Positions 1 to 12,007 of a stretch of DNA of 35,580 bases are shown here, one piece after another (within the stretch, counting starts at the first letter, position 1; every line of letters begins with the position of its first letter). The DNA comes from Syntrophomonadaceae bacterium. Its GTDB lineage: Bacteria; Bacillota; Syntrophomonadia; Syntrophomonadales; Syntrophomonadaceae. The position numbers and the translations under genes were made by a program. The notes beneath the pieces are model-generated. The model made no database searches, was not told the DNA's origin, and saw only the letters and a program-made list of their open reading frames with translations. The stretch is from the NCBI GenBank assembly GCA_028692415.1, contig JAQUXM010000017.1, positions 1 through 35,580 on the forward strand, in the 5' to 3' direction.

Positions 1-1095
1 AGCGCTTTGAACGAAAGCAAAGAAACTGCCTGGAACAAAGAGTTGAAGTTTAGTTTTCAAAAAGTAAGTACCAGAGATATGGTAATTATGACCCGGCAGC
101 TTTCTACCATGATGGCAGCAGGCTTGTCAATTTTAAGGTGTCTCAAGATATTAGGGGAACAAACCGCCAATCGCAAGTTGAAGAAGGCGATCTTAACGAT
201 TCGCGGGGATATTGAAGAAGGACAGGCGCTTTGGCAGGCCATGTCACGGCACCCCGACATTTTTTCCGATGTGTATATAAGCATGGTGCGGGCGGGTGAA
301 CTGGGCGGGATTTTGGAAACCGTGCTGGACAGGTTGGGTGACCACTTGGAAAGGGAACAGGAGATTAGCGCCAAGATAAAGTCGGCTTCCATCTATCCCG
401 CAATTATCACGGTATTTGCGGTACTGGTGGTTTTTTTTATCATTACCTTTGTTATGCCAACCTTTGTGAACATGTTCAAATCATCAGGCGTCGAGATTCC
501 CTTACCGACCAGAATACTTTTGGCTTGCGGTCTTTTCTTGAAAAAGAGCTGGTTATTTATTCTGGCGGGAATTTTTTTGCTTAGTTTTATTTTTAAAAAA
601 TGGGGTCAAACCAGTTCGGGAAGGTTAATTTTGGATAGCCTTTACTTGCGTATACCGGTTTTGGGCAAGACCATATCCCGCATCACGGTAGCTCGTTTTG
701 CTCGTACCATGGGTACGCTGGTGCGCTCAGGCATTCCCATCTTGCAGTGTCTGGAAGCGGTTGAGGACGTGGTCGGCAATGCGGTGATAAAAAGGGCCAT
801 ACGCAAAGCCCGGGCCAGTATCAGTGAAGGGGATTCCATCACGGCCCCGCTGGAGGAAACCGGGGTATTTGAACCGATGGTAACCCAGATGATAGCGGTG
901 GGGGAGGAAACCGGTTCGCTCGATGAGATGCTGGTCCGGATGTCCGAATATTTTGAACGGGAAGTAATCTATATGGTAGATGCCCTGATGGCTGTAGTGG
1001 AACCCCTGATGATTCTTATGGTGGCATTACTGGTAGGAGGGGTTGTGGTTGCCACTTTGCTGCCGATTTTTGAAATAATGAATGTGGTTGCTTAA
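1..1095 (+). CDS. pilC: Type IV pilus inner-membrane platform protein PilC (type II secretion F family), 5' end outside window
   Basis: This is the polytopic membrane platform on which the pilus assembly ATPase acts. Two T2SSF repeats are visible, at about residues 24-147 and 225-348 counted from the TTG at position 7, each followed by hydrophobic helices (for example around residues 130-150, and a last one near 335-358). The frame is open from position 1. Family members have about 40 more N-terminal residues before the motif corresponding to FSFQKVSTRDMVIMTRQL, so the TTG at 7 is probably an internal leucine codon and the true start lies upstream of the window. The gene comes directly before the pilin cluster, and the assembly ATPase genes would be expected further upstream. 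Identity is secure; only the 5' end is missing. Confidence 0.95.
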   Translation, partial: SALNESKETAWNKELKFSFQKVSTRDMVIMTRQLSTMMAAGLSILRCLKILGEQTANRKLKKAILTIRGDIEEGQALWQAMSRHPDIFSDVYISMVRAGELGGILETVLDRLGDHLEREQEISAKIKSASIYPAIITVFAVLVVFFIITFVMPTFVNMFKSSGVEIPLPTRILLACGLFLKKSWLFILAGIFLLSFIFKKWGQTSSGRLILDSLYLRIPVLGKTISRITVARFARTMGTLVRSGIPILQCLEAVEDVVGNAVIKRAIRKARASISEGDSITAPLEETGVFEPMVTQMIAVGEETGSLDEMLVRMSEYFEREVIYMVDALMAVVEPLMILMVALLVGGVVVATLLPIFEIMNVVA

Positions 1096-1280
1096 AAATT
1101 AGAACTTTTTAGAATGTAATAGGCAATTTTCGAAATATTTAATATATAATATTTAGTAGCAATGATATATACACACAGTTATACAACTTCTCCTAAAATT
1201 ATTTGAGGAGGGATTCGATTATTAATAAATTTTTATTAGAAAAATATCAACTATTATTAATATATTAGGGAGGTATATTA
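1096..1280 (+). promoter_or_regulatory. AT-rich leader upstream of the major pilin gene
   Basis: This 185-base gap is much more AT-rich than the flanking genes. It holds a TATAAT hexamer at 1145-1150 that could be a -10 box, but no convincing -35 lies 16-18 bases upstream. A strong Shine-Dalgarno-like GAGGAGGG at 1205-1212 is followed only by ATT codons. The real pilin ribosome binding site is AGGGAGGT at 1267-1274. A separate pilin promoter here is plausible, because a hairpin terminator follows the pilin gene, but it is not proven. Confidence 0.3.
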
Positions 1281-1667
1281 ATGCTGGTAAAGCTTAGAAA
1301 ATCAGTGCAGAGAAAAAACGGTGAGCAAGGATTTACACTGGTGGAACTAATCGTTGTTATGGCTATTCTGGCCCTGCTGGCAGCTCTGGCGGTACCAAAG
1401 TTTGGTAACATACTGAGTGACTCCAAGACCAAGGCGCACAATGCGAATGTAGACATGATTGAATCAGCCGTAGAAGTGTGTTATGCCAGTGGAGATTTTA
1501 CTACGGCAGAGCTTAATGGTTCTACTGATTTGATGGCAACTCTTGAAACCGGAGGTTATTTGAAAGATAAGGATATTGACGATCCTAGAGATAGTACAAA
1601 AAAATACAAAGTTGTGGCAACTGAAAGCAATAACAAGCTCTCTGTTATTACAGTATCCACAGAATAA
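1281..1667 (+). CDS. Type IV major pilin-like prepilin
   Basis: This is a 128-residue prepilin. The N-terminal leader of 17 residues ends in Gly17. Processing by the prepilin peptidase would give mature Phe18, and Glu22 sits at position +5 as in the consensus G/FTLVE. A continuous hydrophobic helix follows (about residues 18-42), then a short soluble head that keeps only one cysteine (Cys50), so no disulphide-bounded D-loop is expected. AGGGAGGT lies 6 bases before the ATG. A hairpin terminator follows the stop codon, so this gene may be made at a higher level than the minor pilins downstream, as usual for a major pilin. It could also be a pseudopilin; abundance would decide. Confidence 0.9.
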   Translation: MLVKLRKSVQRKNGEQGFTLVELIVVMAILALLAALAVPKFGNILSDSKTKAHNANVDMIESAVEVCYASGDFTTAELNGSTDLMATLETGGYLKDKDIDDPRDSTKKYKVVATESNNKLSVITVSTE

Positions 1668-1742
1668 CAATTCTCAGTGAAACAAAACACAACTTGATGA
1701 AATTATGTTTGCATTTATAAAATAGCTTATAGACTTGTAAAT

Positions 1743-1797
1743 AGCCCGGAGACATCGGCAATATTGAGAAAGATGTTATTATCCGGGCTGATGTTTT
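1743..1797 (+). terminator. Hairpin terminator after the pilin gene
   Basis: An 8-bp perfect stem (AGCCCGGA 1743-1750, TCCGGGCT 1782-1789) encloses a 31-base loop. The loop has a second short pairing, GACATC 1751-1756 with GATGTT 1772-1777. A short U-rich tail (ATGTTTTTATT) follows. It lies between the pilin stop and the pilV-like start, so it may limit read-through into the minor pilins. The loop is longer than in most intrinsic terminators, so a regulatory RNA role remains possible. Confidence 0.55.
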
Positions 1798-1833
1798 TAT
1801 TAAGGTTCAGATAAGGTTGGGAGATAAACCAAG

Positions 1834-2262
1834 ATGAAGCTAATGCTTAGGGACCGGCGCTTGGAAGCGGAACCGGAACAAGGCACTACCCTTTTGGAAG
1901 TACTGGTGGCCCTGGCTATGCTGGCGGTTTTGACCACTACGGTGCTGGCTATTTTTTCACCCACCGCTTTATGGATCAGCAAGGCTAGAAATGAGACCAC
2001 AGCGGCAAACTATGCCGCTGCCCTGCTGGAAGACTTGCGGGACAAACGCAGCCTGCTGCAAGCTGTTAACGACATTGCTCCCGAAGATTTGGGCCTTGCC
2101 CAGCCATACAAACCAGCCCTCCCGGCCGGCATCAATGCCCGTATTGACATGGAAGTGATGGCAGGGTACGGCGGCTTGTACAAAGTCGAGGTTTCTGTTA
2201 ACTGGAGCGAAGGAAGCGAGCAGCGCGAGGTCAAAATGACAACACTGATGAGGAGAGTTTAG
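1834..2262 (+). CDS. PilV-like minor prepilin
   Basis: A 142-residue prepilin with a 17-residue leader ending Gly17, then TTLLEVLVALAML with Glu at +5, the class III signal read by the prepilin peptidase. The long N-terminal helix and short beta-rich head resemble PilV/GspI minor pilins, which form the priming complex at the pilus tip. GGGAGA at 1819-1824 serves as ribosome binding site. It is followed after nine bases by the next prepilin gene. The assignment to the PilV type rests on the TLLEVLVALA motif and the gene order; sequence in the head is not diagnostic. Confidence 0.85.
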   Translation: MKLMLRDRRLEAEPEQGTTLLEVLVALAMLAVLTTTVLAIFSPTALWISKARNETTAANYAAALLEDLRDKRSLLQAVNDIAPEDLGLAQPYKPALPAGINARIDMEVMAGYGGLYKVEVSVNWSEGSEQREVKMTTLMRRV

Positions 2263-2271
2263 GGGGCAATC

Positions 2272-3768
2272 TTGAATCCTGCAGGCAATGATAAAGGCAC
2301 AACGCTCCTGGAAATATTAATAGCCCTGGCTTTGGTGTCCATGGTGGCAAGCGGACTGTTTGCCGTCTACTGGGCAGGCAATAACGCATTTGAAAGGCAG
2401 TCGGCCAGTTCCGATGCCCAGTATAGTGCCCGCACCGCCATGCAGTGGATAGTCCGCGATATAATGGGATCATTAAAAAGCGAGGGCAGCCCGGCCTTGA
2501 ATAGTGATAGTTTAACGCTGCATATTCCGGTGGCGGGAGCGGAAGATCCGCAAGAGGTAGCTTATTTTCTCAATGGCAGCAATCTGCGGCGGGATAACGT
2601 GGCAGTAATGAATAACATTATTTATTTAAATTTCCAAAGAAATGAAGGAAGCGAGTTAATCAAGGTAACCATAGAAGCCAGGATCAACCAGCAGAGTTAC
2701 CGTCTGGTAAGCACCGCTACACCGAGGATTTCCAATGCATCCGGCAACAACGGAGGCAATAATGGCGGCAACGGTGGCAACGAAGGCAACAACAACTGGA
2801 CCATCGGAGATGATGGATATGATGGGGATGACCAGTTTATTCTAACCGGGGGACCTGGAGGAGGCCTTTATGTATCCAACGACCAGGGTCAAACCTGGGA
2901 GTTCCATGAGTTTACCGGTTTACTGCTCAGCGATTTTGTTAATATGCATGATTTAGTCTGGAATGGCCAAGAACTGGTTTCGGTAGGGGAAGGATTGCTT
3001 TTGGGCCGAATCGGCAACTCAGCCAATGGCAGTGATTGGGATGATGCCTTGCCGGATGGGCTGGGGGATGCAGTCTTGTGGGCCACCATGTCATCTTTTA
3101 ATGGTGTAGCCTGGGGGGACGGGCTTTATGTTGCAGTGGGGAGCACCCATACCGGTAAAGGAAGAATCTTTACTTCTACGGACGGAAGCAATTGGAGCCA
3201 GCAGGAGCCGCCGGGAACCCCCTGGTGGAATCCCCTGAATGCTTTCACGGCTTCTTTTAACGGCGTGGCCCGGGGCTCCAACCGTTTTGTTGCGGTTGGT
3301 GATGATGGGAGCATTTATGCGGCAACGAATGGTACTACCTGGACCCAGCACAACTCCCAAACCGCCTCTGATCTCAATGCGGTAGCCTGGAGCGAAACAG
3401 CGGACGCTTATATTGCGGTTGGTCAAAATGGTACAATCGTGAGTTCTCACGCTGGTACCAGCTGGAAGGTTGAGGACTCCGGGGTTGTTGAGGCGCTCAA
3501 CCAGGCGGTCTGGAGCCGGGATAAATTTGTGGCGGTGGGTGATTCAGGAACCATTGTGACTTCCGGTGACGGTGAAAGCTGGAATAAGGTTGAGCTTCCC
3601 AATACCATTGCGGAAAATGTGAGGAATGCTGATATTATAGATTTATCGAGCTGCCAGGGCGTACTGGTAGCTGTTGTTGACCCGGAAGTAAAGGTTGACG
3701 GGAAAAACGTGCTTCTACAATCCAATGACGGTGGAGTCACCTGGATACAAAAGACCGTCGATGATTAA
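2272..3768 (+). CDS. PilW-like minor prepilin fused to a BNR/Ycf48-type beta-propeller
   Basis: The protein has 498 residues, starting at a TTG nine bases after the previous stop with AGGGGG just upstream. Residues 1-9 are the leader, cleaved after Gly9, with Glu14 at +5. Residues 10-150 look like a PilW/GspJ head. A Gly/Asn linker at about 155-185 then joins a C-terminal region of about 310 residues. That region contains at least six repeats of the type VAVGxxGxIxxSxDGxxW (for example around FVAVGDDGSIYAATNGTTW and FVAVGDSGTIVTSGDGESW). Such Asp-box/BNR repeats fold into beta-propellers, as in sialidases and the photosystem II factor Ycf48. The propeller would be carried on the pilus surface, most likely at the tip, so an adhesin or ligand-binding role is inferred. 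No catalytic sialidase residues can be assigned. Confidence 0.85.
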   Translation: MNPAGNDKGTTLLEILIALALVSMVASGLFAVYWAGNNAFERQSASSDAQYSARTAMQWIVRDIMGSLKSEGSPALNSDSLTLHIPVAGAEDPQEVAYFLNGSNLRRDNVAVMNNIIYLNFQRNEGSELIKVTIEARINQQSYRLVSTATPRISNASGNNGGNNGGNGGNEGNNNWTIGDDGYDGDDQFILTGGPGGGLYVSNDQGQTWEFHEFTGLLLSDFVNMHDLVWNGQELVSVGEGLLLGRIGNSANGSDWDDALPDGLGDAVLWATMSSFNGVAWGDGLYVAVGSTHTGKGRIFTSTDGSNWSQQEPPGTPWWNPLNAFTASFNGVARGSNRFVAVGDDGSIYAATNGTTWTQHNSQTASDLNAVAWSETADAYIAVGQNGTIVSSHAGTSWKVEDSGVVEALNQAVWSRDKFVAVGDSGTIVTSGDGESWNKVELPNTIAENVRNADIIDLSSCQGVLVAVVDPEVKVDGKNVLLQSNDGGVTWIQKTVDD

Positions 3769-3775
3769 GCTCTGA

Positions 3776-3853
3776 ACTTTCGCAGTTGACCGGTTATTGC
3801 GGCAAAGAAAAGAATACTTTGCAATACTGTCATTGCTATGAAACTAGTGTGCT
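3776..3853 (+). repeat. Leader module of the family 1 repeat (first copy)
   Basis: This stretch starts with AACTTTCGCAGTTGACC and ends with a unit TGTCATTGCTATGAAACTAG. A related stretch at 8148-8213 follows the last pil gene, where the second unit is amplified. It directly precedes the inverted-repeat element at 3854. No gene is visible in it. Confidence 0.6.
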
Positions 3854-4100
3854 TGTCATTGCGAGGAGCGCAGCGACGCGGCAATCTTCCCCGGTAATTG
3901 ATTAGGTAAATGAAAAACGGTCTGACGCTTTTCGTTTATCGTGGCGGGTTATTACCCGTGATAATTGCGCGCGTAGCGAAGCAATCTATAAACAATTTTA
4001 TAAATCTTCCCAGTCTTAATTAAAAACCGTCCAATTTGTTTGTTATAGGCTGCATATAGAAAGTAAGATTGCCGCGTCGCTTACGCTCCTCGCAATGACA
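3854..4100. repeat. Family 1 repeat, complete copy with 35-bp inverted ends (MITE-like)
   Basis: The left arm 3854-3888 begins TGTCATTGCGAGGAGCG. The right arm 4065-4100 is its reverse complement except for a one-base indel and one change. The core holds GGCGGGTTATTACCCGTGAT and a run ending in AGCGAAGCAATCTA. The same core and arm recur at 8294-8476 (same orientation) and 15730-15842 (opposite orientation). No transposase frame is inside. This arm sequence looks like a type of repeat spread through many bacterial genomes; I classify it as a non-autonomous mobile or REP-like element. Confidence 0.8.
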
Positions 4101-4155
4101 TTTCAGCAGCTACCGTACTGTATCGTATTATAATTCAACTTCGAATGTTGAGTTA

Positions 4156-4297
4156 AGCTATAACGAGGCGAAAAGATGTCCAACGTTTCTTTAAGCCGTG
4201 CAGGTTTTAAAAACAAAACAGGCGTCGGGTTCTAATTCCCTCGCCTCGTTGCAGCGATGTGGAAGAAGCTGCTCCGCAGTTTCTTCCGATGCTTAAA
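4156..4297 (+). ncRNA. Structured element family 2, copy A, before the pilX-like gene
   Basis: This is a 142-base element. Outer arms AACGAGGCG (4162-4170) and CGCCTCGTT (4242-4250) pair. Inside are short hairpins ACG/CGT, GTTTT/AAAAC and GGG/CCC. After the outer stem comes a 12-bp hairpin with triloop (4261-4287) and the conserved tail GATGCTTAAA. The downstream gene's ribosome binding site starts 8 bases after the tail. Copies B-E share this plan with compensating changes in the arms. It may be an RNA element or a mobile repeat; function unknown. Confidence 0.6.
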
Positions 4298-4318
4298 AGC
4301 GATAAAAGGAGTTTACCG

Positions 4319-4879
4319 GTGGAAGACAAAAAAGTACCCCTTGATGAAGACGGAAACCTGATGTTAATGGTTTTAATGATTTTTTTGGTCTTAAGTGTTT
4401 TGGGTACAAGCGTAATCAGTTTAGCAAGCATGGAAAACAAGATCAGCCATTATGCGGTAAATGCCCAGCAAGCCCAGCAAGCAGCTGATGCGGGAGCGGA
4501 GTGGGCGATAGAACAAATATGGAATCGAGGTTTGCCAGAAATATTTGAAGAAGAGTTGGAAATTGGAGAAGGTATAAATGTACAAGTAAAGGTTACGGCC
4601 AGAGAAGCTGTTGAAATAAATCAAGGCAACGGCAACGGCAACGGTAATGGCAACGGTAATGGCAATGGCAATGGCAATGGTAACGGTAACGGTAATGGCA
4701 ACGGAAACAATGGCAATGATGCTCCCTTGGATAGTATTGAATGCCGGTATCAATTTACGGTGCAGTCAGATTATCAGGGCGCCAGGAAGGAGCTTGCAGT
4801 TGAGGTTGTCTACTTATATTCCGGGAGTAATCCTCTTCATTATGATCAGGTGGCGATAGAGGCCTATACATATAATTAA
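4319..4879 (+). CDS. PilX-like pilus assembly protein with a Gly-Asn repeat tract
   Basis: The product has 186 residues from a GTG at 4319 with AAGGAG at 4306-4311. An upstream in-frame start at 4259 lies inside repeat copy A and has no ribosome binding site, so I reject it. The N-terminus has a charged stretch, then DEDGNLMLMVLMIFLVLSVL, a single membrane helix, then a helix rich in Ala/Gln (about 40-65), as in PilX N-terminal domains. A tract of 14 Gly-Asn pairs (4625-4708) sits at about residues 103-130, followed by a beta-rich tail. No clear prepilin cleavage site of the G/F type is present. It probably belongs to the minor pilin priming complex with the two preceding gene products. Confidence 0.75.
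   Translation: MEDKKVPLDEDGNLMLMVLMIFLVLSVLGTSVISLASMENKISHYAVNAQQAQQAADAGAEWAIEQIWNRGLPEIFEEELEIGEGINVQVKVTAREAVEINQGNGNGNGNGNGNGNGNGNGNGNGNGNGNNGNDAPLDSIECRYQFTVQSDYQGARKELAVEVVYLYSGSNPLHYDQVAIEAYTYN
4625..4717 (+). repeat. Hexanucleotide GGNAAY tract coding for (Gly-Asn)14
   Basis: Fourteen in-frame hexamers of the form GGC/GGT/GGA + AAC/AAT, then AAT GGC AAT. Third-position variation shows the tract is not a fresh slippage product. Gain or loss of whole units would keep the reading frame and change only linker length. It matches in composition the Gly/Asn linker of the propeller-bearing prepilin at 2272. Confidence 0.9.
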
Positions 4880-4958
4880 GTGCGAAAAAAGGATAAACGC
4901 TTTCAAAAATTAGAGTGAATTTATTGGACTTTTAACATGAATGATGGGATAAGTTTTT

Positions 4959-5702
4959 ATGATGAACTATCTTCTGGTGGGAGGTTTCTCACTATTAATA
5001 GGTTCCTTCCTTAATGTACTGGTTTTTCGTCTCCTGCAGCGGGAATCGATTATTGTCCCGAGGAGTTATTGCCCGTTATGTGGACAGACCTTAAAAGCTG
5101 CCGATCTTATTCCGCTGCTAAGCTATATCCTGCTGGGAGGCCGATGCCGCTACTGTAAGGGGAAAATCAAGATCCAATATCCCCTGGTTGAATCTCTTAC
5201 GATGCTCTTATCCATGCTGATTTATAGTAAGTGGGGCCTCTCGTTTCACTTTATTGAAGGCTGTATCTTTACTGCGCTGTTAATCACAGCGAGCTTTACT
5301 GACCTGAATGAGGGTATTATCCCGGACCGCTTGACTTACCCGGGTATTATCAGCGGTTGCCTTTTAGCCTGCTTTTCCGCAGGCATAGGCAATGCAATCC
5401 TGGGAGCCGCAGTTTTTGGCGGTTTTTTTCTTATCATAGCCAGTGTGTTTCAGGGTGGTATGGGTGGCGGAGATATTAAACTGGCAGCTCTGATTGGGGT
5501 CTATACTGGCCTGCAGGGAGCCATAATGGTTTTTATATTATCATCCTTGCTGGCTGGTCTCTGGGTATTACCGCTCTGCTTGCAGGGCCAAGCAAGCCGT
5601 AAGACGAAGATTAAGCTAGGACCGTTTCTGGCGATTGCTGCCTGGGTGGTGTGGATGTATGGGAACGAAATGATGCTGGCTTATTTGCGCTGGCTGGCTT
5701 AG
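4959..5702 (+). CDS. pilD: Prepilin peptidase / N-methyltransferase (PilD/ComC type)
   Basis: This inner-membrane aspartic protease cuts the leader from the prepilins encoded just upstream and methylates the new N-terminus. The 247 residues include the zinc-binding pair CPLC (38-41) and CRYC (63-66) of the methyltransferase half, and the catalytic aspartates Asp115 in TDLNEG and Asp172 in GGGDIK. About seven or eight hydrophobic helices are visible. Two adjacent ATG codons at 4959 and 4962 are possible starts; the upstream GGGATAAG is a weak ribosome binding site. Context inside a pil cluster makes the assignment firm. Confidence 0.95.
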   Translation: MMNYLLVGGFSLLIGSFLNVLVFRLLQRESIIVPRSYCPLCGQTLKAADLIPLLSYILLGGRCRYCKGKIKIQYPLVESLTMLLSMLIYSKWGLSFHFIEGCIFTALLITASFTDLNEGIIPDRLTYPGIISGCLLACFSAGIGNAILGAAVFGGFFLIIASVFQGGMGGGDIKLAALIGVYTGLQGAIMVFILSSLLAGLWVLPLCLQGQASRKTKIKLGPFLAIAAWVVWMYGNEMMLAYLRWLA

Positions 5703-5839
5703 TGCAAAGGGCAAGGCGGTTATAAGTGATAATTACGCAGCAGGATTTTAACGTTTGGGAGTTGAACAAATAAGAATTAAGGTTAAGCTTTTTGTGGTTA
5801 GTTTTAAATTTAGGCCTGGGGAGATTTGGGGGAGTAGTT

Positions 5840-6835
5840 GTGTTTAAGCGGGCAGCCGATCTGGGGTTGGATATAGGCAGCAAAAAAACCAAGCTGGCCA
5901 AGGTGAAACGCAAGGGTCTTGAATGGCAATTGGTCAAATATGGATGCATCGATACTCCGGCAGGTTTGGTGGAAGCCGGAAACATTTCTGAGCCCGAAAA
6001 AGTTGGAGCCGGGCTGGCTGGTCTGGTAAAAAGCATGGGCCTGGAAGGACAGCGGGTAGTATCGGCTGTTTCAGGGCAACAAGTCTATATTCGGAATCTG
6101 GTGCTGCCTCGGATGAGCCGGGTTGAGAGCAGGGAAGCGGCTATTTATCAGGCTGTCACTTTTCTTCCTATTCCCATCGAAGAAGCGGCTATTGATGTTT
6201 TCCCTTTGCGAGATTTTGAGGATGAAGATGGCAAGAAAAGCGAATTGTTTTTCGTAGCGGTACCTCGCCTGCAGGTGGACAACCTGGACCTGGCCTGCCA
6301 TACCGCCGGGCTCAGACTAGTGGCGGTAGAAATTGAGCCGCTGGCGATTAATCGTATTATGCTGCCCGAATATGCTTCCGGCGTCCGGGCATTACTCCAA
6401 ATAGGGGCCTCGCGCTGTTATTTCTCAGTATTCAGCGGGCATACCCTGCTGTTTTACCGCACCTTATCTTCCTTTTACCAGAATATTAGCTTCATTATCG
6501 GTGAAGAGAATATGGATTTTGAAAGCCTTAAAAATATACAGGAAGGGCAATTCAGATACATTGTCAGAGACCTGATTTCCGAGGTCAACCGTTCAGTTGA
6601 GTATTTTAATATTCAACACCATCCACAAAAATTGGAGAGGCTTTGGTTATGCGGAGGGGGGACCGGCTTAAAAGGCCTGGATACGGCACTGGCAGCGGAA
6701 ATATCCTGTGAGGTTCAGGTTGCCGATTTCCTTCCCCGTTTCATTCTGCCGGCTGATATGGATGACCGGGCCAAACGGGAAATAAATTATGACCTTCCGG
6801 TTGCCTTGGGTCTGTCGGCTAGAGAGGTGATATAA
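5840..6835 (+). CDS. pilM: Type IV pilus assembly actin-like protein PilM
   Basis: This is a cytoplasmic actin/FtsA-like ATPase that forms the alignment complex with PilN and PilO. The start is a GTG at 5840 with GGGGGAG at 5828-5834, giving 331 residues. A longer in-frame start at 5792 has no ribosome binding site. The first phosphate-binding loop is LGLDIGSKKTKLAKV. The second part has LWLCGGGTGLKGLDTAL near residue 275, the adenosine motif of the family. The stop overlaps the pilN ATG by one base, so the two are translationally coupled. Confidence 0.92.
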   Translation: MFKRAADLGLDIGSKKTKLAKVKRKGLEWQLVKYGCIDTPAGLVEAGNISEPEKVGAGLAGLVKSMGLEGQRVVSAVSGQQVYIRNLVLPRMSRVESREAAIYQAVTFLPIPIEEAAIDVFPLRDFEDEDGKKSELFFVAVPRLQVDNLDLACHTAGLRLVAVEIEPLAINRIMLPEYASGVRALLQIGASRCYFSVFSGHTLLFYRTLSSFYQNISFIIGEENMDFESLKNIQEGQFRYIVRDLISEVNRSVEYFNIQHHPQKLERLWLCGGGTGLKGLDTALAAEISCEVQVADFLPRFILPADMDDRAKREINYDLPVALGLSAREVI

Positions 6836-7386
6836 TGGATTCTGCAAAACCCATCTATATCAATTTACTGATTCGGGAGCAGCAGCAAAAAAGGCGAATT
6901 CCGGCCTCCTTGATGGCTTGCCTGCTATTAGCGGTTTTGGGGATTGGGCTGGGCTGCTGGCATGGATATATGCAGGATGAACTGCGGTCTTTGCAGGCTG
7001 AAAATGCTGAATTGCAGGCGGAACTGGGCCAATTTAAAGAAGAGCAGCTTGAACTCCAGTCTTATCAGGATTTACGCAGCCAGATAGAGAGCAAGGAAGC
7101 AAGGGTAAGTGAGGTAAGCGAGGCAAAAATCAACTGTGTAGAGGTTTATGAAGAGATAGAGCAGGCGCTTCCCCGTGGCCTGGTGCTAATAGGCATAGAA
7201 ATAAACAAGGAAAAGGTGATGATGAACGGTTATGCGGTTGATTACGAAGATCTTGCCGCGGCATTGTCAGGTTTAAGGAAAAGTCCTTTGCTGCACAATG
7301 TCATGCTGCTCTCATCCAATATCGATAAAGACAGCGGAGAAGTATTGTTCAAGGTGGAAATGAGATGGGAGGCCGGCAAAGAATGA
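6835..7386 (+). CDS. pilN: Type IV pilus alignment-complex protein PilN
   Basis: A 183-residue bitopic membrane protein. The short cytoplasmic N-terminus contains YINLL (residues 8-12), the known PilM-docking motif of PilN. A membrane helix follows (about 24-42), then a coiled coil (about 45-95), then a ferredoxin-like periplasmic-type domain. It overlaps pilM by one base and its stop overlaps the pilO start (ATGA-type), so the three are likely made in fixed ratio. Confidence 0.9.
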   Translation: MDSAKPIYINLLIREQQQKRRIPASLMACLLLAVLGIGLGCWHGYMQDELRSLQAENAELQAELGQFKEEQLELQSYQDLRSQIESKEARVSEVSEAKINCVEVYEEIEQALPRGLVLIGIEINKEKVMMNGYAVDYEDLAAALSGLRKSPLLHNVMLLSSNIDKDSGEVLFKVEMRWEAGKE

Positions 7387-8141
7387 TGCTTTCCAGGCGA
7401 GAAAAAATACTGCTCACACTTCTGCTTATATTAGGATTGGCGATTTCCTATAATTACCTGGTCTACCAACCAGGTCAAATTGCCAGGAAGCACTTGATTC
7501 AGGAAAACGGTGTTTTAATAAGCTTAATTGAAAGAGGTACCAGCGCCAAAGCCCAAAACCTGGATATAAACCAGGAAAAGACCAGAATAGTTAAAGCAGG
7601 CAATGAACTTATGCTTCAGATTCCAAGCTCGGCCAGGGTGCCCGAAACCGTAGCTTTTTTAAAAAGAACCGCACGGGATACCCATGTGAATTTGCAGAGT
7701 ATAAATTACGCAATTAATAAGAGCAAGACCGGCATGAATAAAAATGCTAAAGCAAACAAGGATATTTTAGAAAAGGTGCAGGTTCTGGATTATAATATCA
7801 CGATTCAGGGGGGATATAATAATCTGCTGGCCTTTCTTTTAAAATTTGAAAATGCCCCCCGTCTTTATACGATAAACAATTGCCGGATGATCGCAAATGC
7901 CCAAAAGTTTGATGAAGCCGCGATCAGCGAGGTCCTAACTTCGTTAATTGAGGACCCGGAAGCGGCTCCAGTGCCTGTGCCTTTGCCCATTATGCCTAAA
8001 GGTTCAGCTATTTATGATGGTAATAGTATTCAGCTTAATTTGAAGTTTTCCGCTTATTATGAAGAAGAGACGATTCCCGGCTTGAACGCCGGGGAAGAGG
8101 AAGTGCCGGCCGCTTCCGGAAAGATAAACCCATTTCTGTAA
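7383..8141 (+). CDS. pilO: Type IV pilus alignment-complex protein PilO
   Basis: The start is the ATG at 7383, with GGGAGG at 7367-7372; it overlaps the pilN stop. The 252 residues hold one N-terminal membrane helix (about 8-26), a coiled coil (about 35-75) and a C-terminal PilO-like alpha/beta fold with a Pro-rich insertion (VPVPLPIMP). PilO pairs with PilN. The cluster ends here: no pilP or pilQ follows, which fits a cell that needs no outer-membrane secretin. Confidence 0.85.
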   Translation: MMLSRREKILLTLLLILGLAISYNYLVYQPGQIARKHLIQENGVLISLIERGTSAKAQNLDINQEKTRIVKAGNELMLQIPSSARVPETVAFLKRTARDTHVNLQSINYAINKSKTGMNKNAKANKDILEKVQVLDYNITIQGGYNNLLAFLLKFENAPRLYTINNCRMIANAQKFDEAAISEVLTSLIEDPEAAPVPVPLPIMPKGSAIYDGNSIQLNLKFSAYYEEETIPGLNAGEEEVPAASGKINPFL

Positions 8142-8147
8142 ATAACT

Positions 8148-8292
8148 CAACTTTCGTAGTTGACATATTATGCGGCACAACTAAATTGTCATTGCTGAGG
8201 CAACGCTTCTCCTTTGTCATTGCTATGAAACTACTGTGCTTGTCATTGCTATGAAACTACTGTGCTTGTCATTGCTATGAAAACTCGCGTAT
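8148..8292 (+). repeat. Leader module plus 26-bp tandem repeats of family 1
   Basis: 8148-8213 resembles 3776-3853 (AACTTTCGTAGTTGACA start). It is followed by two identical 26-bp units (8214-8239, 8240-8265) that begin TTGTCATTGCTATGAAACTA and a third diverged 27-bp unit (8266-8292). The unit start TTGTCATTGC equals the outer end of the inverted-repeat element that follows, so the units look like decayed or aborted element ends. One reverse-oriented unit is found at 15843-15863. Confidence 0.8.
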
Positions 8293-8293
8293 T

Positions 8294-8476
8294 TGTCATT
8301 GCGAGGAGCGTAAGCGACGCGGCAATCTTCCCCGGTCATTGCCGTATAAATGGAAAATGCTCTGACGCTTTTCGTTTAGCGTGGCGGGTTATTACCCGTG
8401 ATAATTGCGAGCGGTAGCGAAGCAATCTAAAATGACTTGGCGATGGATAGATTGCTTCGCTGCACTCGCAACGACA
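8294..8476. repeat. Family 1 repeat, second copy
   Basis: It begins TGTCATTGCGAGGAGCGTAA and shares with the copy at 3854 the core that contains GGCGGGTTATTACCCGTGAT. Here the right half is replaced by a separate hairpin: arm 8401-8429 (ending AGCGAAGCAATCTA) pairs with 8448-8476 (TAGATTGCTTCGC...). No coding frame of interest lies inside. Confidence 0.75.
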
Positions 8477-8489
8477 TATAATCCCCTGT

Positions 8490-8597
8490 CTCGTTGCAGC
8501 GGTGTGTTGCCCCCTACGGGGACTACTTATATTAGTTCCCTTCGGGAATGGTTGAATTATGTTGAAAACTGTTTTAAGGTTTCTTTCGATGCTTAAA
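8490..8597 (+). repeat. Degenerate family 2 element (copy F) with foreign hairpins
   Basis: The 5' piece CTCGTTGCAGCGGTGTG (8490-8506) and the 3' piece TTTCTTTCGATGCTTAAA (8580-8597) match the second half of copies A-E. Between them lie two small hairpins, CCCC/GGGG near 8511-8521 and TTCCC/GGGAA near 8536-8548, in place of the usual CTGC/GCAG hairpin. The first matches CCCCCTACGGGGACTACT near 18809. It is a partial or rearranged copy, upstream of tldD. Confidence 0.5.
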
Positions 8598-8767
8598 TTT
8601 GTTTGGTGATGGGAAAACATATTTAATAGAACTATGTGAGGCATGAGGCGTCACGAGTAAGGGGATGGTTCTCTTACCAGCCCTGCTTTGCGAAATTCTT
8701 GGCGGAAATCGGGCAATTGCCTTTAGTTTATTTAAGAAATGGAAATCAAGACAACAGGAGGCTGTTA
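8598..8767 (+). other. Remainder of the repeat-rich gap before tldD
   Basis: This stretch contains GTGAGGCATGAGGCGTCACG near 8635, a relative of the motif found twice as inverted copies at 15571 and 15709. An open frame continues upstream from tldD to 8636, but it has no ribosome binding site and consists of repeat-derived sequence. I see no gene here. The tldD ribosome binding site AGGAGG is at 8757-8762. Confidence 0.5.
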
Positions 8768-10195
8768 ATGTTAGATAAAAATTTAATTTCCAGGGTACTG
8801 GACGAAGCTATGCAAAAGGGCAGTGATTTTGCGGAAATCTATTATGAAGAAAAACAAGTAAGCAATGTATTTTGCGAAGATAATCGTATAGAAAAAGTCA
8901 ATAGCGGGCGGGAAAGAGGGGCCGGAATCAGAGCCGTCAAAGATGGCAATACAGCTTATGTATATACCAGTGATTTATCACTCGAAGGTCTATTGAAAGC
9001 AGCCGCCGTAGCCAATCATGTCGCCAGTGCCCAGGTTCGCAGTATTGACCGGGAGATTAACTTATCAATTAAAGAGCCGCGTTTTAACATGGAATACAAG
9101 CGTTTACCTGAACAGGTAGATTTTGAAGAAAAAATAGAGCAAGTCCTGGCGGCCAATGAACGGACCAGGAATTATGCACAGGAGATTCGGCAGGTTACCG
9201 TAGCCGCTGGAGACATGCAGCGCAAGATTCAAATAGCCAATAGCAATGGGGACTTGATAGAAGAAGAACAGGCCCGGGTCAGGCTAATCGTAAATGCGGT
9301 AGCTTCGCGGGAAGGTATGGTTCAAACCGGCTATGAATCGGCGGGAACGGTTGGCGGTTGGGAACTGCTGGATAATATTAATTTTGCCGAAATGGGCGAA
9401 AAAGCTGCACGGCTGGCGGTGGAAATGCTGTCGGCAAGACCAGCCCCGGCCGGGCGCATGCCAGTCGTAATGGCCTCGGAAGCTGGCGGTACGATGGTGC
9501 ATGAAGCTTGCGGTCATGGCTTGGAAGCCGACCTGGTGCAGAAAGGCCTCTCAGTATATCGCAAGCAACTGGGAGAGATGGTTGCCGCCGAGGGGGTCAG
9601 CGTTATTGATGACGCTACACTGCCCGGTCGTTATGGCAGCTATAGATTTGATGATGAGGGCAATTATGGGCAGCGGCAGGCTTTAATCGATAATGGCGAA
9701 CTGAAAGCGTATCTCTATGACTATCTTACAGCATCCAAGGAAGGAAAAAAGTTTAGCGCCAATGGCCGCCGCGAGTCCTATCAGCATAAACCCATCCCCC
9801 GGATGAGCAATACCTTCATTGCTCCCGGTAAAGATGACCCGGCAAGCATCCTTAAGGATACCAGGTCTGGACTGCTGGTTAAAAAAATGGGTGGGGGACA
9901 GGTGAATACTACCAACGGGGATTTTGTTTTTGATGTACAGGAGGCTTACATAATCAGTGAAGGGGAAATAAAATACCCGGTGCGGGGAGCCACGCTAATT
10001 GGCAATGGCCCTCAGGTCCTGGGGGATATTGATATGCTGGGGAACGACCTGGGCTTTTCCATTGGTACCTGCGGCAAGGATGGACAGGGAGTTCCGGTTG
10101 CTGATGCCCAGCCCACCATTCGAATAAAGCAAATGACGGTGGGCGGGACTGCGGTTGAAGATGGACCGCAGATTAAACGAATCAGAAGAAAGTAG
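8768..10195 (+). CDS. tldD: Metalloprotease TldD (peptidase U62 family)
   Basis: TldD is the catalytic half of the TldD/TldE heterodimeric zinc protease, which degrades unfolded peptides and matures some peptide products. The start ATG at 8768 has AGGAGG six bases upstream, giving 475 residues. The zinc motif HEACGH (residues 245-250, in GGTMVHEACGHGLEAD) is intact. The C-terminal half carries the conserved blocks around RMSNTFI and GQVNTTNGDFVF. It lies 10 bases before tldE, as expected for partners. Cellular substrates cannot be read from this context. Confidence 0.95.
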   Translation: MLDKNLISRVLDEAMQKGSDFAEIYYEEKQVSNVFCEDNRIEKVNSGRERGAGIRAVKDGNTAYVYTSDLSLEGLLKAAAVANHVASAQVRSIDREINLSIKEPRFNMEYKRLPEQVDFEEKIEQVLAANERTRNYAQEIRQVTVAAGDMQRKIQIANSNGDLIEEEQARVRLIVNAVASREGMVQTGYESAGTVGGWELLDNINFAEMGEKAARLAVEMLSARPAPAGRMPVVMASEAGGTMVHEACGHGLEADLVQKGLSVYRKQLGEMVAAEGVSVIDDATLPGRYGSYRFDDEGNYGQRQALIDNGELKAYLYDYLTASKEGKKFSANGRRESYQHKPIPRMSNTFIAPGKDDPASILKDTRSGLLVKKMGGGQVNTTNGDFVFDVQEAYIISEGEIKYPVRGATLIGNGPQVLGDIDMLGNDLGFSIGTCGKDGQGVPVADAQPTIRIKQMTVGGTAVEDGPQIKRIRRK

Positions 10196-10205
10196 GTTGT
10201 TACCG

Positions 10206-11546
10206 GTGGAGATAATACTCAAAAAAGCAGGAGAACAGGTACTTGATATAGCCCGCCAAAAAGGTGTTGAAGCTGAGGCGTTTCTTTTGCATGCCAGGGA
10301 ATTAGGGATTGAGATTATTGATGGTCGGATGGATACCCTGAAAGAAGCTGAGGAAATCGGGATAGGAATAAGAATAATTAACGATGGGCGGGTAGGCTTT
10401 GTCTACAGCAGCGATTTATCCGGCCCGGCCATTGCAGAAGCAGTTAATCATGCTCTGAGTATTTCCCGTTATACGGTTGCCGATGAGCATAACAAGCTGC
10501 CGCAGGGTAATTATGCTTATCCTGCGATGGCACTTTTTGATGATAATATTGTTTCCACCAGTCTGGAAGCCAAGATTGAGATGGCCCGGCAAATAGAGCG
10601 GGTTGCCCGCGCCAGTGATCCCCGGGTACGGATCATTGAGCGGGCCGGTTATGATGACCAGGAGTTTACGGCAGTTATTATGAACACCCACGGACTTTAT
10701 GCGGCTGGTCGTGCAAACTCCTGCGGTTTGTATATTTTTCTGGTAGCGGAAGAAGAGAATGATGCCCAGAACGGCTTTTCTTTCATGAGTAAAAAGCGGA
10801 TTCAGGAATTGCAGCCGGATGCCGTTGGCCAGGAAGCTGCCCGGCGCGCGGTTCGAAGTCTTAATGCCCGCAGCATTAATTCCGCGCAAATGCCTTGCAT
10901 TATGGAACCCTACGTAGTGACCAGATTTTTGGGTTTGTTTGCGCAAGTCGTTGATGCCGGAGCAGTGCAAAAGGGCAAATCATTATGGGAAAAACAAATC
11001 GGTCAACAAGTAGCTTCGACACAAGTCTCGCTGGTGGACGATTCTACCTATGCCGAGGGAATAGCGGCATTTCCATTTGATGGAGAAGGAATTCCCGCCC
11101 AAAGAAATACGGTGATAAAAGACGGTGTTTTACAAACCTTTTTATATGATAGTTATACTGCCGGCAAAGCAGGGGTTAAATCTACCGGCAACGGCCAGCG
11201 CGGGTCTTTTCGCAGTCTTCCTTACGTGGGCACCAGCAACTTTATACTGCAACCGGGCAATAAAAGCCCCGACCAGCTTATTAGGGAAGTACAAAAAGGT
11301 TTTTATGTTACGGAGCTTATGGGTATGCATACGGCCAATCCCATATCAGGTGACTTTTCTCTGGGGGCCTCCGGGCTGATGATTGAAAATGGCCAGTTAA
11401 CTTATCCGGTAAGGGGAGTTACTATAGCCGGAAATATGGTAAAATTCTCTAAGGATATTGAAGCCTTGGGTAATGATCTCTGCTTTTTTGGATCCCGAGC
11501 TGCAGCTACTATCCGTTTGAACAGTATGAGTATTGCTGGTGAATAG
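10206..11546 (+). CDS. tldE: TldD partner TldE (PmbA)
   Basis: The non-catalytic or regulatory partner of TldD, 446 residues from a GTG at 10206. The GTG is preceded by AGTAGG at 10191-10196. A TTG at 10155 would overlap tldD by 41 bases and add residues that family members lack. The HExxxH motif is absent at the equivalent place (EPYVVTRFLGLFAQ), as in TldE. Conserved blocks such as GNGQRGSFRSLPYVGTSNF and the C-terminal IEALGNDL are present. Assignment is firm; the exact start is moderately sure. Confidence 0.92.
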   Translation: MEIILKKAGEQVLDIARQKGVEAEAFLLHARELGIEIIDGRMDTLKEAEEIGIGIRIINDGRVGFVYSSDLSGPAIAEAVNHALSISRYTVADEHNKLPQGNYAYPAMALFDDNIVSTSLEAKIEMARQIERVARASDPRVRIIERAGYDDQEFTAVIMNTHGLYAAGRANSCGLYIFLVAEEENDAQNGFSFMSKKRIQELQPDAVGQEAARRAVRSLNARSINSAQMPCIMEPYVVTRFLGLFAQVVDAGAVQKGKSLWEKQIGQQVASTQVSLVDDSTYAEGIAAFPFDGEGIPAQRNTVIKDGVLQTFLYDSYTAGKAGVKSTGNGQRGSFRSLPYVGTSNFILQPGNKSPDQLIREVQKGFYVTELMGMHTANPISGDFSLGASGLMIENGQLTYPVRGVTIAGNMVKFSKDIEALGNDLCFFGSRAAATIRLNSMSIAGE

Positions 11547-11557
11547 GAGGTAACGAT

Positions 11558-12007
11558 ATGGATGGCCGGATATTAGTAATCAATGGCCCCAATCTTAATT
11601 TACTGGGCATGCGTGAGAAAGACATCTATGGTGAAAAAAGCCTGGAAGACATCAATCGCGAATTAAGAGTAATGGCCATGGAGAAGCAAGTCGAAATGAA
11701 TTTTTTCCAATCAAATCATGAAGGGGAAATTATCGATAGGATACAGGATGCGCGAGGGCAGGCGGATTGTATAATTATCAATGCCGGGGCTTTTACACAT
11801 TACAGTATAGCTATTCATGATGCATTAAAAGCTGTGGATATCCCCGTTATCGAAGTTCACCTTTCCAATATATTCAAGCGGGAAGCATTTCGGCAACAGT
11901 CGCTTATTTCGCCTATTGCAGTGGGAGGCATATTTGGTTTTGGGGCCTTAAGCTACAAAATGGCTTTTTTGGCGGCCTGTGAGATTATACGAGACCAGAC
12001 AGACTAG
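11558..12007 (+). CDS. aroQ: 3-dehydroquinate dehydratase, type II
   Basis: It catalyses the third step of the shikimate pathway, 3-dehydroquinate to 3-dehydroshikimate, as a dodecamer. The length is 149 residues, typical of type II. Catalytic Tyr24 (in DIYG), His101 (in EVHLSN), Asn75 (in INAGA) and Arg112 are present. The usual FRHxS motif reads FRQQS here, so the histidine after Arg112 is glutamine. GGAGG lies before the ATG. Together with the next two genes it reproduces the aroQ-pepQ-efp order of Bacillus. Confidence 0.95.
   Translation: MDGRILVINGPNLNLLGMREKDIYGEKSLEDINRELRVMAMEKQVEMNFFQSNHEGEIIDRIQDARGQADCIIINAGAFTHYSIAIHDALKAVDIPVIEVHLSNIFKREAFRQQSLISPIAVGGIFGFGALSYKMAFLAACEIIRDQTD

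Follow-up and report, generated by a model that had tools for sequence, protein, structure and literature searches.

In many diderm bacteria PilY1 is the tip adhesin of the type IV pilus, and, to our knowledge, little has been learned about how the type IV pili of monoderm anaerobes recognise their partners. The assembly of pili begins with a complex of minor pilins that forms the tip, which is also where large C-terminal modules of such pilins are expected to be displayed (PMC8179133, PMC9934059, PMC10628169). Modular pilins, i.e., pilins with an extra C-terminal domain, were described in 2021 in 264 architectures (PMC8179133), and adhesin precedents are provided by PilB and PilC of S. sanguinis and by PilX2 of Saccharibacteria (PMC8179133, PMC9934059, PMC12206443). 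The last of these, a propeller-bearing minor pilin, was described in 2025, and its deletion lowered host binding from about 10.6% to 4.6% of host cells (PMC12206443). The supplementary architecture list of the 2021 survey aside (PMC8179133), we found no paper that names a pilin with a Ycf48-type propeller. The protein considered here lies in the window, that is, the whole stretch of 35,580 nucleotides that was analysed, which belongs to a genome that is 92% complete and consists of 245 contigs. It is a fresh example of the modular-pilin design, which is already known, and we hold it reasonably probable that it is a modular minor pilin in the PilW/GspJ position, with an acquired Ycf48-like propeller as an adhesion or recognition module displayed at the pilus tip.

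The gene occupies positions 2272-3768 of the plus strand, exactly where the first-pass annotation had placed a prepilin-propeller protein, and its translation runs from a TTG start for 498 aa without internal stops. A modular pilin can be recognised by a class III leader that ends in Gly and is followed by Glu5 and a hydrophobic helix, by homology to ordinary pilins, and by a C-terminal domain that is not specific to pili, and all three features were found in this protein (Table 1). Its leader, MNPAGNDKG, is followed by TTLLEILIALALVSMV, with Glu5 (TTLLE) and the hydrophobic helix, and its pilin module is 59-60% identical to the 162-aa pilin of a sister species of the same genus (G001). The match of this module to PF07963 is borderline (2.3e-4, 21.0 bits for a cut-off of 21.2), and a phylogenetic tree places the module in the PilW clade with a support of 100/99. 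Comparison with GspJ/PilW-type profiles returned weak N-terminal matches only (ComGE, GspI, PRK10557), none of them over the cut-off. As the profile matches of the pilin half stay below the equivalog cut-offs, its assignment as a J-type pilin is based on orthology and on position, the gene being located between the I-like and the K-like prepilins, where PilW/GspJ stands in the core set of minor pilins. The leader, Glu5, the helix, this position and the sister orthology together bear out the earlier description of the N-terminus as an intact PilW-like prepilin.

Table 1. Features of the pilus locus, in positions of the window.
Feature	Position	Strand	Basis or remark
PilC-like gene	7-1095		Type IV pilus operon
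Major-pilin-like prepilin (PilA/GspG type)	1281..1667	+	PF07963 3.4e-9; GspG/ComGC-like N-terminus
Minor prepilin, PilV/GspI-like	1834..2262	+	XpsI 2.9e-8, PilV 1e-6, both below equivalog cut-offs
Prepilin (class III) leader MNPAGNDKG	2272..2298	+	Translation; cleavage expected after Gly9; TTG start behind AGGGGG
Pilin module in PilW/GspJ position: small head behind an N-terminal Glu5 helix	2299..2733	+	PF07963, sister pilin identity, tree
Gly/Asn linker (NASGNNGGNNGGNGGNEGNNN), degenerate 9/12/21-bp repeats	2734..2796	+	Translation, repeat analysis
Segment absent from sister: linker extension, propeller, non-coding stretch, first pilX codons	2739..4339	+	blastn synteny break
Predicted seven-bladed Ycf48-like beta-propeller, residues 190-496	2839..3759	+	PF14870, AlphaFold2, Foldseek, blade profile
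Non-coding stretch, propeller stop to pilX, bounded by inverted repeat pair	3855..4100	.	3855-3887 minus; about 4067-4100 plus
Minor prepilin, PilX/GspK-like, without Glu5, (GN)n tract in head	4319..4879	+	PilX_N 3.1e-8
Prepilin peptidase PilD, then PilM, PilN, PilO	4959..8141	+	Pfam; PilO just under cut-off

The better start of the PilX-like gene is the GTG at 4319, which is preceded by AAAGGAG. Although the pil operon is present, no clear genes for PilB and PilT were found in this incomplete assembly, probably because the contig starts inside pilC; the genome has a single T2SSE-type ATPase match (G000:C61:7486-8319). PilY1 (PF05567) was found neither among the Pfam matches of the window nor in this genome, the sister or the more distant relative G021, in a search for which a positive control (G445) gave 2e-55. 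Window positions 1-12000 contain no match to Rfam families.

The C-terminal part of the protein matches the Pfam family PSII_BNR/YCF48 (PF14870) with 36.5 bits against a cut-off of 27 (E 4e-9), and this match, together with the seven-blade model, identifies a domain that is not specific to pili. A blade profile, built from other proteins only and with the window sequence left out, detects five repeats, four of them strong (29.6-40.5 bits) and one weak (6.1 bits), which is far beyond chance, since none of 100 shuffles yielded more than one blade or scored above 5.4. AlphaFold2 predicts the propeller alone with a pLDDT of 86.9 and a pTM of 0.88, as a full set of seven blades. The alignment used for folding was composed of 35 propeller loci obtained by a looser query of a species-wide genome collection, none of which starts as a prepilin; with the whole 498-aa protein as query, no relative with the same fusion was retrieved from this collection. 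In the prediction of the whole protein the propeller is again confident, while the pilin half is not (pLDDT mostly <50), because the orthologues of the latter could not enter the alignment. The seven predicted strand groups comprise residues 190-213, 222-258, 273-311, 329-360, 368-401, 409-439 and 455-496, of which the first has three strands only. The top Foldseek match is Ycf48 bound to a D1 peptide (5ojp, TM 0.57), and among the matches listed the TM-scores are 0.66-0.67 for seven-bladed designs vs. 0.53-0.60 for eight-bladed ones. The number of strand groups and the better superposition on seven-bladed designs put the blade count at seven, and not at the six counted in the first-pass annotation, whose proposal of a C-terminal propeller on a Gly/Asn linker is otherwise sustained by the PF14870 match, the blade profile and the confident predicted fold; judging from the Foldseek matches, the ring appears to be closed. 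The propeller has a mass of ~34 kDa and is acidic, with a computed pI of about 4.1, and the base composition of its region is within the range of the operon and does not mark it as foreign. Note also that the family has conserved proteins of 500-600 aa that consist almost wholly of Ycf48-like blades (L080:3-1535, L082:1216-2898, L012, L038, L042); they begin near NEWRWRNPLPQGNTLRAV and have no obvious signal peptide.

In the same operon of the sister species, the orthologous PilW ends without a propeller, and its gene likewise starts with TTG. Using blastn, window positions 1870-2738 and 4340-4545 match sister positions 1365-2231 and 2298-2503, and the two blocks are separated by 1,601 bp in the window vs. 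66 bp in the sister, where pilX comes next. This difference at the same site marks the propeller as a graft specific to this lineage. Since PilW orthologues from further afield, those of G021, G059 and G060 among them, are likewise short and carry no propeller, a gain in the lineage of the window is simpler than repeated loss; among 54 family genomes and 63 class genomes, no propeller was found on another PilW orthologue. Directly after the propeller, and within the segment that the sister does not have, lies an inverted pair of a dispersed GC-rich repeat (AGATTGCCGCGTCGCTGCGCTCCTCGCAATGAC), of which the genome has 18 copies when up to three mismatches are allowed (none in the reversed control) and which may be a trace of the segment's arrival. 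In sequence, the propeller resembles free surface propellers most, and those carried by pilins to a lesser degree. A recent duplication of the C60 propeller protein of the same genome was considered as its source and rejected, the identity of ~30% being no closer than to propellers of other phyla.

The sister pilin stops at the position of the linker, ending in ...PRVSKAAGSGGGN (AAGSGGGN-stop). In the sister pilW (L081 ~4253-4270, minus strand) a run of eight G is found just before the stop, where slippage could alter the C-terminus. The Gly-Asn tract of the neighbouring PilX-like protein is encoded by a 6-bp tandem repeat (14 copies of GGCAAC, positions 4625-4708, coding for (Gly-Asn)n), and, the repeat unit being a multiple of three, its length could change without frameshift. 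This tract sits inside the head of the pilin and not between two domains, and at its position the sister PilX-like pilin has only RNNGNSKSQQ. The first-pass annotation had likened the linker to this tract and suggested that the two are tuned together; the likeness in composition stands, while a shared tuning does not, since repeat structure and place in the protein differ and the sister species has both the linker and the tract in short versions only.

The same domain pair is found elsewhere in the phylum. Prepilin-propeller fusions are present in seven genomes of the family (L010, L011, L027, L039, L041, L045, L048) and, without lectin, in six genomes of other families (L054, L058, L059, L061, L062 and L124, the last being a near-copy of L062). 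Where their surroundings could be read, these fusions stand in or beside type IV pilus genes, in a separate minor-pilin cassette, typically preceded by a gene of 375-495 aa (DUF7305 or with a GspK/PilX-like N-terminus) and followed by a further prepilin. The carrier pilin is GspI/PilV-like in the two that were read by profile, and no other propeller-bearing pilin found is a PilW orthologue. Three family genomes with a propeller pilin (G010, G020, G061) also have a short PilW nearby, which implies that the fusion of the window is not the same gene. Prepilins of ~760-830 aa with blade repeats were detected as well (L069:2877-5297, L072:1866-4292, L073:8397-10871, L070:7467-9758). In the first three of these, Pfam matches a LamG-type lectin between residues 392 and 553, after the first blades, and in L069 and L070 blade repeats flank the middle region on both sides, at about 229-376 and 640-796; the middle region of L070 did not reach the lectin profile. 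By their sequences, then, several family pilins carry a lectin that is inserted within the propeller, on what is predicted to be a pilus-tip pilin.

At least two changes of propeller state are needed on the tree of the pilin halves. An AU test on these halves did not reject a single origin (p 0.44), which is attributable to long deep branches. Separate grafts are suggested by the empty site in the sister, the different cassettes and the genomes in which a propeller pilin coexists with a short PilW. Conceivably, propellers of the Ycf48 type, some of them with an inserted lectin, are recurrent, exchangeable recognition heads in this family of anaerobes that became attached independently to different tip pilins (I-like in the relatives, J-like in the window), replace the absent PilY1 and set the partner cell or surface of each species, a generalisation that we consider unlikely.

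The architecture of the window protein is well supported: the prepilin motif and the place in the operon are seen in the sequence, a short pilin is its orthologue in the sister, the insertion is evident from the comparison with that species, and the fold is predicted; processing, location at the tip and binding are inferred. The propeller would have been gained by insertion between the last strand of the pilin and the next gene, on a flexible Gly/Asn linker. PilD would cleave the leader, and the Glu5 helix would join the PilV-like and PilX-like pilins in a tip complex. The acidic propeller would then be carried outward at the front of the growing pilus and could bind a ligand there, be it on a surface, polymer or partner cell, taking the effector role that PilY1 has in other bacteria. 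With a domain that the sister lacks at this site, the pilus probably carries a new grip for surfaces or partner cells.

The main competitor of this reading, which we judge improbable though worth weighing, also assumes a modular pilin but gives the propeller a role in the structure or assembly of the tip, where it would stabilise the complex or dock a secreted protein, and not that of an adhesin. The nearest fold, Ycf48, does belong to a factor that serves in assembly and binds a partner (PMC10403576), the PilY1 propeller is thought to be a carrier for other modules with the effector role (PMC8179133), and the insertion of a lectin in the relatives would fit a propeller that serves as a platform. 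However, the pilins of the sister and of the family that have no propeller indicate that it is not needed for assembly, the window protein has no further effector domain, and the flexible linker decouples the propeller from the pilin body. Considering the expected tip display of bulky modules, the absence of PilY1 from the search results and the precedent of PilX2, tip adhesion or recognition is the most likely function, with the scaffold as its main rival.

Decidedly less probable is a pseudopilus of a T2SS-like secretion system, in which the propeller would capture or process a secreted substrate or polymer in the manner of GH74 enzymes or sialidases. The minor pilins of the two systems are alike, and the Foldseek matches include GH74 xyloglucanases and a BNR glycosyl-hydrolase-like protein; the GH74 matches, however, are two-propeller enzymes with low TM-scores and an rmsd near 19 Å. 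A match to the F510_1955 family glycosylhydrolase is weak (31.6 vs. a cut-off of 175 bits), and PilM, PilN and PilO are present in the operon in type IV pilus order. We give very little credence to the idea that the fusion blocks pilin assembly, the product being a surface propeller anchored in the membrane or the gene being in decay. The propeller module is twice as large as the pilin, and the TTG start could mean low expression, but modular pilins of S. sanguinis with bulky modules do assemble (PMC8179133, PMC9934059), the start codon is shared with the sister gene, and the pilin half has been conserved at 59-60% identity with the sister pilin, with leader and Glu5 intact and an uninterrupted frame. 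Least credible of all is the misjoining of a propeller fragment into the pil operon of a metagenome-type assembly: it would fit an assembly of 245 contigs and a segment absent from the sister, but two false joins would be required, and one of these would have had to preserve the frame at a Gly/Asn linker that prolongs the AAGSGGGN terminus of the sister pilin; the frame is open throughout, the operon synteny resumes at pilX, the base composition is within the operon range, and the adjoining non-coding repeat belongs to the source genome.

For the favoured function, tip-displayed adhesion or recognition, the short sister pilin and the propeller pilin of the window form a before-and-after pair, in which an adhesive module can be tested as a single addition. 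The lectin-in-propeller tip pilins of the relatives, a less expected by-product, offer a second test set. If the family consists of syntrophs, propeller heads would be candidates for holding methanogen partners.

Compared with described systems, the window protein resembles S. sanguinis PilB (vWA) and PilC (lectin) in that a prepilin leader and pilin module are followed by a loop-joined C-terminal domain with predicted tip display (PMC8179133, PMC9934059). It differs from them in having a Ycf48-like propeller as its module, on a putative adhesin that occupies the PilW/GspJ position of a classical pilA-V-W-X operon. Saccharibacteria PilX2 is likewise a minor pilin with a C-terminal seven-bladed propeller (PMC12206443), although its repeats are of the RCC1 type and it has no predicted PilD signal peptide, whereas the window protein combines BNR/Ycf48-type repeats with a classical class III leader. 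With PilY1/PilC (PF05567) the proposed window protein would share the presentation of a propeller by the minor-pilin tip complex, but PilY1 does not belong to the pilins and has a propeller of another family. Ycf48/HCF136 (PSII_BNR) is similar in fold and repeat sequence; being a photosystem II assembly factor, it has the fold alone in common with the window protein. The prepilin-propeller(-LamG) proteins of the relatives also join a prepilin to a Ycf48-like propeller in or beside type IV pilus clusters, where these could be read, and differ in their GspI/PilV-like carrier and separate cassette behind a GspK/PilX-like or DUF7305 gene, the carrier in the window being the pilin of the PilW/GspJ position.
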